DNA of 64,000 nucleotides from an uncultured Brachyspira sp. (lineage in GTDB: Bacteria; Spirochaetota; Brachyspiria; Brachyspirales; Brachyspiraceae): NCBI RefSeq assembly GCF_944393015.1, contig NZ_CALXYQ010000004.1:62001-126000 (forward strand), given 5' to 3'. Shown piece by piece: positions 7,694-42,028 of the stretch. A program made the translations under genes and the position numbers. The notes beneath the pieces were generated by a model. The model had not been told where the DNA came from. It did no database searches and saw only the letters and a list, made by a program, of their open reading frames with translations. Numbering within the stretch: the first letter of the stretch is position 1; the number at the start of each line of letters is the position of its first letter.

Positions 7694-8052
7694 AGTTGAT
7701 AAGATGTTAATAAATGATGAAAAAATATTAACATTGCAAACAAATTTATATTTTATGAAAAATTTGAATTTCAAAGTAAAATTTATTATTTTTGAATATT
7801 TCTATATTCGTTAATATCAACATAGTTATCAACATCATATTTATACCATTTTTTTAATTTCTTCTTATATGCAAAAAGTTATCAACATATCAACAGCTTA
7901 ATAATAATAAAAAATTTATTTAAAAATTTAAATATATAATATTATTATATAATACAAATTAGAATATACTTCAAAATTTGAATTTTAATATATAAAATAT
8001 AATGAATTCAATTATTTTAGTAATGTTAATAACTTGTTGATAATGTTGATAA
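7694..8052. other. Cluster of DnaA-box-like 9-mers; candidate replication origin
   Basis: Four exact TTATCAACA 9-mers, one mismatch from the consensus TTATCCACA: 7826-7834 and 7879-7887 on the plus strand, 8035-8043 and 8044-8052 on the minus strand. Related boxes are ATATCAACA at 7814 and 7887, and the minus-strand forms TGTTAATAA at 7705 and 8024 and AGTTGATAA at 7694. The stretch is extremely AT-rich and carries repeated AAATTTGAATT tracts (about 7759, 7972, 8118), which could serve as an unwinding region. parS-like sites lie 3-4 kb away. dnaA is not in the window. The origin call is inference. Confidence 0.5.
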
Positions 8053-8207
8053 ATTTGAATAAAAAATACTGTATAAATTTCAATATAAAATTTAGTATAT
8101 GAATTTTGAATATGAATTCAAAATTTGAATTCATAATCTATAATTAGCATTTTTAATAATTTTATGTTATAATAATCTAAAATATTATGTTTATTCTGGA
8201 TAGTACT

Positions 8208-8981
8208 ATGAAACAGAATTTTTATATTAATAGTAAGTTAAAAGATTTAATCTCAAACATAATTTATGATGTTCAAAATTACAATAGTATAATAACTAAA
8301 TATATAGATTTAGAAAGATGTGCCAATAATTACTGCAGTGAATCAAGAGCCACAATAGTAAGACAATCTTTTCTAATAAATAGAACTATGGAATCTTTAA
8401 GCGACTTTAATGATATAAATTCTGACTCTTTTAAACTTAATATGAATTTTGAAAATATATCAGTTATTATAAATGAAGCTTTGGACAGCGTATTCGATTT
8501 ATTTAAATCTAAAAGGACTAAAATAAAGCTGGATGATAAAATACTAACAGAATGCATAGTTTTAATGGACAGGGATAAAATAAAGAGAAGTATTCTTAAT
8601 ATATTTTCTTTTATATATAGTTTAATAAAAGTAAATACATCTATGAATATATCTTATAGTTTGATAAATTATGGTAAAGATAAAGAGTTTTTATTAATGA
8701 ACGGCGTTGATAATATAAGCGAAAAGGATGAGAAAATACTTGATTTAAATGAAGAATGTATAGATATATCTATAACTTTCGAATGCGATAATATACCTGA
8801 TGATATAAAAAGAATGCTATTTAAAACGCCATTAATATCTTATGATAATTTCAATTTTAATAATCTATATTTATATACAGCCTATAGAATAATAAGAGAA
8901 CATTATGGTAATATATGGCTTGAATCTTTAAAAAATGAACAAAGGATTAATATAATACTTCCAGCTAAGAATAAGTTATGA
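8208..8981 (+). CDS. Histidine-kinase-like ATPase-fold protein, degenerate
   Basis: 257 residues from the ATG at 8208, chosen because GGA lies 7 bases upstream; the frame also opens at ATG 8187. There is no membrane segment. A helical N-terminal part is followed by an arrangement like a sensor-kinase ATPase domain: NFENISVIINEALD, then DRDKIKRSILNIFSFIYSLI in the N-box position, and a C-terminal LYTAYRIIREHYGNIWLES resembling the G2 region. The classic N-box Asn pair and the G1 DxGxG are not evident, and no clear H-box is seen. It may be a kinase-derived binding protein. Its stop overlaps the start of the next gene (ATGA), implying translational coupling. Confidence 0.6.
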   Translation: MKQNFYINSKLKDLISNIIYDVQNYNSIITKYIDLERCANNYCSESRATIVRQSFLINRTMESLSDFNDINSDSFKLNMNFENISVIINEALDSVFDLFKSKRTKIKLDDKILTECIVLMDRDKIKRSILNIFSFIYSLIKVNTSMNISYSLINYGKDKEFLLMNGVDNISEKDEKILDLNEECIDISITFECDNIPDDIKRMLFKTPLISYDNFNFNNLYLYTAYRIIREHYGNIWLESLKNEQRINIILPAKNKL

Positions 8982-39457: not shown

Positions 39458-39494
39458 AAAGCTCTATATAATTATTTTTATATAGGGCTTTTTT
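39458..39494 (+). terminator. Intrinsic terminator after the restriction-modification genes
   Basis: GCTCTATATAA / TTATATAGGGC stem (one G-T pair) and a run of T. Confidence 0.8.
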
Positions 39495-39614
39495 ATATGC
39501 ATTATTTTCTGCAATATAAACTTATGAAATATAATTACCGCATTAATCATGTAAAATTATTTTTTGAGTTTTTTAGCTTTATTGGCTATATTATAAATAT
39601 GAAAAGGATGCATT

Positions 39615-39725
39615 ATGTTAAAAAATAAGTCAACAGTCAACAGTCAACAGTCAACAGTCAACAGTCAACAGTCAACAGTCAACAGTCAACAGTCAACACT
39701 TTTAATTTATTATTCTATCATATAA
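39615..39725 (+). other. Short reading frame across a heptamer repeat
   Basis: ATG at 39615 with AAAAGGATG 4 bases upstream runs through the repeat array (STVNSQQ units) and stops at 39723. A second frame, open from the array to a TAG at 39884-39886, ends in the ribosome-binding site of the surface-protein gene. Adding one 7-bp unit, or losing two, would join the ATG to that frame. No known protein is recognised. Confidence 0.4.
39628..39697 (+). repeat. Ten perfect tandem copies of the 7-mer AGTCAAC
   Basis: 70 bp without a mismatch. It sits 198 bases upstream of the Vsp-like gene. Period 7 shifts the reading frame with each gain or loss, as in contingency loci. Confidence 0.97.
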
Positions 39726-39895
39726 TAATACTATTTTCAATAGTAAATAAATTTTTTCAAATATCAAACTACTCAAGCAAAATCAATAATACTGCATTAA
39801 AAAATATAATCAGCTGTATATCAGTTACAGTATCATATATTTCATATAAAAAGAATATAAATAATAATATTTATAATTTTATTTAGGAGAAAAAA

Positions 39896-41065
39896 ATGAA
39901 AAAAATATTTCTACTGTTATTAATTTGTGCGGCTTCGGTTTTCGGATACTATGATTCAGACGATTTTATCGATTTTTTAGTTCATAGTAATCAGTTTAGA
40001 GCTAGACTTAATGCACTAGGATTTAAACTTGAAGCCAGCAGTGTACATGTTACAGCAGGAATTACAAGCCCTACGGCGGGTAAAATATTTGATAATTTAT
40101 ACAGTATGAATTCAGCTGAAACTGCTGCAAAAAATGGTACAGATTTACAAAAATACTTTTTCTATCCAAAAGCTATTGTGGGAGTAGGTTATAAAACTCC
40201 TATTATAGGTGTTGGTGTAGGATATGAATTTGCTTATAGTGATCCTTCATATCAAGTACATACACCAATATTAACAGCAACAGCTCTTAATGACTCTATC
40301 AGAATAAATGTTCCTGTTCATATAGGTGTAGGTTCTAAAGAAAAAAATGGTGAAATGGGAATATCTACTCCTATAGAAATCAGATATTATCTAGGACTTC
40401 CTTTTATGAGTCAGATTCGTTTAAATATAAGATATGGAGAATATAAAAATAATGCTAATGCTAAAAAGCAGTCTTTTGGTCTTGCTGCTAGAATATATTT
40501 CAGAGCTGAAACAGAAGATGTTCTTATAGAGCCTTTCATAAGACTTCAATATGATCAGGCATTAAAAACAAAAGATGAAAATGGAAAAGAATGGGCAGGA
40601 GAAAATTTTGATATAACTGCATTTAATCAAGGAGCAACACCTAGTGCCGGAGGAATTGATAAAAATGGATGGGCAACTAGTGATTTAAACTTACTAATGA
40701 GCTTAGGTTATAAATTAGATGATCCATACAGATTCAGTGTTGCTTTACCTGTAGGATTTACTTCAAGCAGTGAATTTATACATTTATATCTTGAACCTTC
40801 ATTATCATTCAATATGATAGGAGGATCTAGAATATATAAAAGTAATCAGAACAATTCAGATTTAATAAGAGAAAGAAATGAGTTATTCTATACTGTAGGA
40901 TATTGTGTATACGGCGAGATATATTTGAAACCAACAAAATCATTAGAATGGTATACAGAAATACAGACAGGCGGAGCAAGTGTTGTAGGCAGTTTTGCTA
41001 AAGGAAGTGCAAGCGAATTTATATTGAATGCATCTACAGGTATCACTTGGTATTTTAATTTATAA
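39896..41065 (+). CDS. Vsp-type variable surface protein (outer membrane beta-barrel)
   Basis: 389 residues. A signal peptide (to about residue 17, FG before YYD) is followed by DDFIDFLVHSNQFRARLNALGF, the N-terminal pattern of the Brachyspira Vsp surface proteins. The rest is alternating aromatic beta strands ending in Phe-Asn-Leu (WYFNL), as expected of an outer-membrane barrel with a terminal aromatic. Vsp proteins are abundant surface antigens of about 39 kDa. AGGAG precedes the ATG. The heptamer array upstream may control it. The GH16 lipoprotein gene follows 33 bases later. Confidence 0.8.
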   Translation: MKKIFLLLLICAASVFGYYDSDDFIDFLVHSNQFRARLNALGFKLEASSVHVTAGITSPTAGKIFDNLYSMNSAETAAKNGTDLQKYFFYPKAIVGVGYKTPIIGVGVGYEFAYSDPSYQVHTPILTATALNDSIRINVPVHIGVGSKEKNGEMGISTPIEIRYYLGLPFMSQIRLNIRYGEYKNNANAKKQSFGLAARIYFRAETEDVLIEPFIRLQYDQALKTKDENGKEWAGENFDITAFNQGATPSAGGIDKNGWATSDLNLLMSLGYKLDDPYRFSVALPVGFTSSSEFIHLYLEPSLSFNMIGGSRIYKSNQNNSDLIRERNELFYTVGYCVYGEIYLKPTKSLEWYTEIQTGGASVVGSFAKGSASEFILNASTGITWYFNL

Positions 41066-41098: not shown

Positions 41099-42028
41099 AT
41101 GAGAAAATTTATAGTTTTTTTATTTGTAATTTGTATATCTATTGCATCTGTAATATCATGTAATAATAAAGGTACTACAGGTCCTACTATACCACCTAGC
41201 AGAACAGAAAAGACTAATGTAGCTTTTAGAGATGACTTTGATGGTACAGAAATAAATAAAGATGTCTGGACATTATGTTATCAGGAATACGGTAAGGACG
41301 GAAATTCTCCTACTTGGAACAGATTCTTTGATAATACAGAAGGCTGGGAAAATGTAAGAGTAGAAGATGGTTATTTGAAATTAAAAGCAAATTATGCTCC
41401 TAATCCTGGAGCCGGCGAAAATAAACAATTTAAAACAGGCGGTGTTTATACTATAGATAGATATGGTCCTGGTACTCGTGTTTCAGTAAAAGCTGCTTTA
41501 GTAGAAGGTAACGGTCAAAAACAATTAGGATCAAAATTCAATATTAAAGGTGCTTTCCCTGCTGTATGGTATTATCCTTTAGGTACTAAAAATCCTTGGC
41601 CTGCTGACGGTGAAATAGATTTAATGGAATGGGTTACTAGTAATCCTGATCAAGCATGGTTAACAATACAGTGTTTAAGAAAAGATGGAAGCTCAAGATC
41701 TGTAACTGCTGATAAACAAGGTGTAAATAAAGGTATAAATATGGCTACTTGGCATACTTACACTTGCGATATAATAAAAGATAAAGTTATATTATACATT
41801 GATGGTACAAAAGCTTTAGAGTTTACTCCAACTAATCCACCAGATCAAAAATGGTATCCATACAATGATGTTTATCAATACTTAATATTGAATGCTTCAT
41901 ATCAGAATGGTTCTTGGGGTCCTGGTCCTGATAAGGCTGACTCATCTAATTATGAAATGTGGGTAGACTGGGTTGAAATAACAGAGATAGATCCTAATAC
42001 TGAACCTACAGCACCAACTTTTAATTAA
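41099..42028 (+). CDS. Glycoside hydrolase family 16 lipoprotein
   Basis: 309 residues with lipobox Cys21 (SVISC). The catalytic GH16 motif ExDxxE is seen in ADGEIDLMEWV. Other family features are FRDDFDGTEINKDVW at the start of the domain and WHTYTCDIIKDKVILYIDG before the last strands. GH16 enzymes cut beta-1,3 or beta-1,4 glucans or galactans. It is surface- or periplasm-anchored, probably co-transcribed with the Vsp-like gene, and may act on mucin or dietary glycans (inference). A bidirectional terminator follows. Confidence 0.9.
   Translation: MRKFIVFLFVICISIASVISCNNKGTTGPTIPPSRTEKTNVAFRDDFDGTEINKDVWTLCYQEYGKDGNSPTWNRFFDNTEGWENVRVEDGYLKLKANYAPNPGAGENKQFKTGGVYTIDRYGPGTRVSVKAALVEGNGQKQLGSKFNIKGAFPAVWYYPLGTKNPWPADGEIDLMEWVTSNPDQAWLTIQCLRKDGSSRSVTADKQGVNKGINMATWHTYTCDIIKDKVILYIDGTKALEFTPTNPPDQKWYPYNDVYQYLILNASYQNGSWGPGPDKADSSNYEMWVDWVEITEIDPNTEPTAPTFN

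Follow-up and report, generated by a model that had tools for sequence, protein, structure and literature searches.

A heptanucleotide repeat in a leader frame as a probable phase-variation switch upstream of vsp and other genes in Brachyspira

Introduction

What does a perfect heptanucleotide array do when it lies in a short reading frame ahead of a gene for a variable surface protein? The question is raised by a 64,000-nucleotide stretch of DNA from an uncultured Brachyspira sp. (contig NZ_CALXYQ010000004.1, positions 62,001 to 126,000; hereafter, the window), which has a G+C content of 27% and comes from a genome of 3.44 Mb. In Brachyspira, Vsp proteins act as surface antigens, and strains and species differ strongly in whether they have them, for which the passages on the subject name no cause (PMC5415613). 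A preliminary description of the window had proposed that the array couples a leader to the surface protein on an on/off basis. A search of the open-access literature, with subscription papers and preprints outside its scope, returned no account of repeat phase variation in Brachyspira; the nine papers matching the heptamer string are by title human or fungal studies, none bacterial, and a 2025 phase-variation review mentions neither Brachyspira nor translational coupling.

The Array and Its Leader at the vsp Locus

The array, (AGTCAAC)10.1 at positions 39628-39698 of the forward strand, has 100% matches and is by a wide margin the top-scoring tandem repeat that Tandem Repeats Finder reports for the window, which bears out the ten perfect copies first counted. 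It starts 13 nt after an ATG (39615-39617) that has AAGGA about 6 nt 5' of it (Shine-Dalgarno and start, 39604-39617, forward strand); ATTATGTTAA of this segment is kept in the orthologous locus L034 of genome G019. The array is in frame with this start codon, as first described. Each of the three frames of the repeat encodes the heptapeptide VNSQQST, and only the forward strand is stop-free, the complementary strand holding a stop codon. As in simple-sequence-repeat (SSR) contingency loci, a perfect tandem repeat with a unit that is not a multiple of three lies in a reading frame.

Simulated copy numbers give the leader three possible ends. With ten copies, the state in the assembly, it has 36 codons and stops at TAA 39723-39725; with nine or 12 copies, it stops at TAA 39703-39705, so that the early stops of the two uncoupled frames fall within 39703-39725 of the forward strand. 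With 11 copies (92 codons) or eight (85 codons), the leader runs to TAG 39884-39886, inside TTTAGGAG, the vsp Shine-Dalgarno sequence, and 9 nt 5' of the vsp ATG at 39896. For eight, ten and 11 copies, the simulation agrees exactly with the frames described earlier. The tail behind the array (39699-39886, forward strand) is open in one frame, and a frame open to vsp occurs in 0.4% of dinucleotide shuffles of the 197-nt spacer (P = 0.004), in keeping with the earlier remark that so long an open frame is uncommon by chance. Copy number thus decides, in silico, between a productive and a terminated frame, both here and at the other leader loci discussed below, and in the assembled genome, with its ten copies, the vsp switch would be off. 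Directly 3' of the early leader stop is an inverted repeat, TACTATTTTCAATAGTA (39729-39745, forward strand), which is identical in L034.

The presumed target of the switch is a gene on the same strand (39896-41065) for an outer-membrane protein of 389 aa. The Serpulina_VSP profile PF05540 covers residues 7-386 with an E value of 4e-60, which upholds the earlier naming of the gene as Vsp-like and makes the protein a full-length member of the family. At L034, the open leader frame ends in a TGA overlapping the vsp ATG. Near position 8274 of that locus, the vsp start codon is followed by six A instead of seven, so that the ATG and the remainder of the gene are in different frames; the tract may itself be variable, the gene may be a pseudogene, or the sequence may contain an error. 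The other vsp paralogues in the genome under study are without such a leader, which, like the frameshift at L034, speaks against a switch at vsp.

Promoter and Neighbouring Genes

An intrinsic-terminator-like hairpin with a 14-pair stem and a T tail lies 3' of the upstream DNA methylase gene (39458-39491, forward strand; one found against 0.0 expected). The leader therefore probably has its own promoter. A candidate, TTGAGT-17-TATATT, is located at 39564-39592 of the forward strand; it is a consensus match of 9/12 positions, and its TTTTTTGAGTTTTTT and CTATATTATA are conserved in L034. The preliminary description had added that copy number would also change promoter spacing. This part found no support: the best-placed promoter-like site is 5' of both leader and array, so that copy number is unlikely to alter the spacing, and a promoter-spacing model was set aside as the main explanation on account of this position.

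Downstream, 33 nt 3' of vsp, is a gene for a GH16-like lipoprotein (41099-42028, forward strand; PF00722, E 1e-6), which is possibly co-transcribed with vsp. A phage or mobile element was considered and set aside, as no phage record matched the locus; no Rfam family matched it either. The heptamer array itself is present in three viral contigs.

Distribution of the Array and Its Placement after Start Codons

A genome-wide pattern search for two heptamers found the AGTCAAC array in 17 of 26 Brachyspira genomes, and the two-copy pattern was confined to these 17. None of 35 other sampled genomes of the phylum had the array, although one Spirochaetaceae contig carries it. The genome under study has it at three further contig positions, namely at the start of a type IIG restriction-modification gene on C5 and at the ends of C48 and C8. 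The latter two are probably one locus split by assembly, because an upstream dxr-like and a downstream YidC-like gene are arranged there as in L022 and L031.

The placement of the arrays is far from random. Upstream sequence is available for 22 Brachyspira arrays, and in 20 of them an in-frame start codon (ATG or GTG) lies at most 15 nt 5', compared with 19% of random implants into the same loci (binomial P 6e-13), and a Shine-Dalgarno-like motif accompanies 17 of these 20. One of the two exceptions is the second half of an interrupted array (L033), while the other has its ATG 39 nt 5' (L045). Furthermore, the Brachyspira arrays are oriented with the stop-free strand as the leader. Elsewhere, AGTCAAC arrays are start-linked in 13 of 92 cyanobacterial cases and in none of ten from other phyla. 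The array is common in filamentous cyanobacteria (Tychonema, Microcoleus, Nostoc, Calothrix) and also occurs in some Bacteroidota and in Legionella shakespearei, in each case without a start-codon association.

Target Genes and Leader Frames

Separate leaders precede genes of several kinds: Vsp (in the window and at L034), YidC-like proteins, an MFS transporter, a TylF-like methyltransferase, a BrnQ-like transporter and one further gene (L245). The TylF-like gene is that of L039; a second one at L244 and the BrnQ-like gene of L045 were named by sequence likeness. The YidC-like targets are about 930-1000 aa long, with a weak sulfatase-like match at the C-terminus. A multi-copy Brachyspira family of about 900-1000 aa (L031 8160-11147 and paralogues; six strong matches in the genome under study) combines a YidC/Oxa1-like N-terminal domain with a long C-terminal part that has a weak sulfatase/phosphodiesterase match.

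Two kinds of array open straight into a gene instead. One is in the type IIG gene, which has 8.00 copies and is off in the genome under study, and has 5.86 copies and is on, giving 1047 aa, in G010; it is probably a phase-variable methyltransferase. In the former genome (L028, C5:100060-114225), the array at 8001-8056 comes right after the start codon, and the gene is also seen at L046. The other is in a glycosyltransferase-like (GT2) gene of G009, named from its sequence and not from a family search.

Each of the 24 leader loci checked has one or more frames behind the array that end near the next start, with the last stop base between -30 and +40. Typical end points are +4 (a TGA overlapping the ATG), +14, or 9-22 nt 5' of the start; a leader stop near or overlapping the gene start is found at vsp (11 or eight copies), at L034 and at many YidC loci. 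The 24 loci include L229, L230, L045, L244, L245 and the L231 variant, and L029, L035 and L244 are without an upstream end. At 23 of them, another frame stops at least 60 nt upstream; the exception, L040, has a shortened tail with every frame ending between -31 and +25. The frames present in the assemblies are a mix of coupled and uncoupled states.

How surprising an open tail is depends on the class. Among shuffles, an open frame turns up with a probability of 0.004 in one Vsp leader and 0.003 in the other. The three long MFS leaders give 0.015-0.03 and L039 gives 0.08, but the short YidC and L040 spacers, each considered alone, reach 0.3-0.9. Together, 13 YidC tails have no stop in 261 codons of one frame, compared with 36 in 252 codons of the gene's own frame, although the loci are homologous and hence do not represent 13 independent events. 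An N-terminal extension of Vsp or of the YidC-like proteins was considered and rejected, since the gene's own frame closes soon after the array.

Exchange of the Repeat and Variation in Copy Number

The repeat in the leader need not be AGTCAAC. In G008, a neighbouring paralogue has 32 copies of AATCAAC in the leader slot, and one of its states reaches a TGA at +4. The corresponding leaders of G005 and G021 share the prefix CGGTGAATAAATTCTCA after the ATG region, and their units are TCTCACT (five copies) and CTCAT (ten copies); each of these leaders stops early in one state, at a TGA at +4 in another and at a further point in the third. Other leaders (L183, L202, L191, L176 and L210) are free of an array and open from the ATG to the gene start, and L176 holds what looks like a decayed array. 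Given replaceable repeats and array-free open leaders, it is the leader that is conserved, while the repeat is exchangeable.

Unit lengths of 4, 5, 7 and 8 bp were seen, and none of 6 or 9 bp with at least four copies in 715 kb, a result that differs from a genome-wide survey because the loci were picked as carrying or resembling array loci. Further repeats in related genomes were noticed at L038 6906-7008 (8 bp), L036 5164-5228 (4 bp), L044 2989-3055 (7 bp) and L168 3266-3323 (7 bp). Some of them are near start codons, and the array of the 8-bp unit continues as a reading frame of about 326 codons.

In SSR contingency loci, copy number varies faster than the flanking sequence between close relatives. 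This was found between species at the MFS locus, where G019 has 28.7 copies (interrupted) and G023 has 15.0, with flanks 95% and 99% identical, and where G003 has 7.4 copies, with flanks 93-96% identical.

Probable Translational Coupling and the Predicted Masking of Start Codons

It is reasonably likely that slippage in the array shifts the frame of the leader and thereby switches the coupled expression of the next gene. The array would then be the hypermutable element in a translated leader that varies in phase. Slippage, which we infer to happen within a strain, would gain or lose 7-bp units and move the leader among three frames. In the coupled frame, the leader would be translated up to the vsp ribosome-binding site and stop there, so that terminating ribosomes could start vsp and the RNA would not be exposed to Rho, which is encoded in the genome. 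In the other two frames, translation would stop about 170-190 nt upstream, and vsp would be poorly translated or its transcript cut short.

In the YidC class, the start of the target gene appears to be masked. The 65-nt segments that span the start are predicted to fold more stably than shuffled sequences (z as low as -6.7), and a 25-pair hairpin that includes the Shine-Dalgarno sequence and the start is paired in 91.5% of cells, compared with at most 60% when slid (15 sequences). Nine cells are changed on both sides, and the covariation score exceeds that of all 500 shuffles; this counts as support and not as proof, because the shuffles do not keep relatedness. Translation of the leader through the hairpin would open the masked start.

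The vsp start is different. Its ribosome-binding site, AGGAG, is strong and well spaced and is predicted to be unmasked (z -0.6), with an accessibility of 0.41 compared with a median of 0.43 for control genes (the L029 value being left out of the comparison). The MFS, TylF-like and BrnQ starts are likewise predicted to be unmasked, so that a masked start is predicted for the YidC class and not for these four. For this reason, vsp is not filed as a masked-start coupled pair. Given its strong and predicted unmasked site, vsp may be translated whatever the leader does, and coupling by reinitiation or by Rho-dependent polarity, as suggested here for vsp, could be weak.

Alternative Roles for the Array

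These properties of the vsp start lend some weight to the view that only the leader peptide varies in phase, with Vsp starting independently from its own well-spaced AGGAG in an accessible region without significant structure, and the leader having little effect. This view is nonetheless rather unlikely. A free-standing peptide would not need a frame that ends at the next start, as found at each locus checked; the leader tails of the different gene classes have no common protein sequence; and the conserved hairpin masks the start in the YidC class.

The array might, alternatively, act in the DNA or the RNA as a spacer or a protein-binding array, in which case transcription would be tuned by the number of copies. 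A precedent exists in Haemophilus influenzae, where heptanucleotide arrays in the promoter region upstream of hmw1A and hmw2A modulate transcription (PMC2651432, citing Dawid et al. 1999). There, too, a 7-bp array lies 5' of a surface protein gene, at a distance of about 100 bp, and, for hmw, copy number alters expression; the length of the leader RNA would also change with copy number. The Brachyspira vsp array, in contrast, is 3' of the candidate promoter and within a translated leader, the same place in the leader can be taken by unrelated 5- and 7-mers, and the arrays follow start codons in a single orientation, all of which makes such a role quite improbable.

A third possibility is a neutral satellite, spread by some form of duplication and playing no part in expression. 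This may be true of the cyanobacterial AGTCAAC arrays, and the heptamer does abound in distant phyla, where it is not linked to start codons. For Brachyspira it is very improbable: the placement statistics already disfavour it, orientation and open frames are far from random, and an array is fused intact and in frame to the type IIG gene.

The idea of a repeat-gated leader whose frame determines if translation extends to the next gene is, across the genus, strongly supported by start-codon placement, orientation, gene-reaching frames, a replaceable unit, array-free open leaders and mixed on/off states. The genus-wide comparison favours the core of the on/off coupling first proposed; its scope was too narrow, the arrangement not being specific to vsp, and the effect of the leader frame on the Vsp level at the vsp locus is inferred.

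Relation to Known Systems

The closest parallel for the frame switch itself is neuO of Escherichia coli K1, carried by the CUS-3 prophage, where an AAGACTC heptanucleotide repeat in the 5' coding region switches the frame (PMC13001214). In both cases, the copy number of a 7-bp tandem repeat, modulo three, sets the frame, and the type IIG and GT2 loci of Brachyspira follow the neuO plan. Whereas the neuO repeats are inside the enzyme gene, those of the vsp, YidC, MFS, TylF-like and BrnQ loci are in a separate leader that stops at the next start.

TAACTGA direct repeats, which were suggested to act on translation in Beggiatoaceae, cyanobacteria and Bacteroidetes (PMC4679880), resemble AGTCAAC in that a single heptamer is dispersed before many unrelated genes and is common to distant phyla. 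In Brachyspira, AGTCAAC closely follows start codons and has no stop in the leader sense; TAACTGA, by contrast, includes stop codons and closely precedes start codons, with 2-6 copies in its main host.

Translationally coupled leader peptides with masked downstream starts offer a further parallel: there, as in Brachyspira, the leader can stop in an ATGA overlap with the gene that follows, and the YidC class shares the hairpin covering the start, which leader translation would open. Classical leaders of this kind respond to translation conditions, while in Brachyspira a mutable repeat would set the frame at random. The repeat-gated leader may, on this evidence, be regarded as a variation on known simple-sequence-repeat phase variation, the new part being the location of the repeat in a coupled leader.

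Conclusions

It is conceivable, if somewhat short of probable, that Brachyspira possesses a separate class of phase variation, in which a short translated leader with a replaceable frame-shifting repeat precedes unrelated genes. Such a class would allow up to three expression levels, set by whether the leader ends across the next start, a little way into the gene or far upstream of it, and some targets would also have start-masking hairpins. If true, a repeat-gated leader of genus-wide occurrence ahead of genes for Vsp and YidC-like proteins, transporters and methyltransferases, together with the gated restriction-modification and glycosyltransferase genes, would provide a concrete random switch, and would extend repeat-based phase variation to the spirochaete genus Brachyspira and to coupled leaders.
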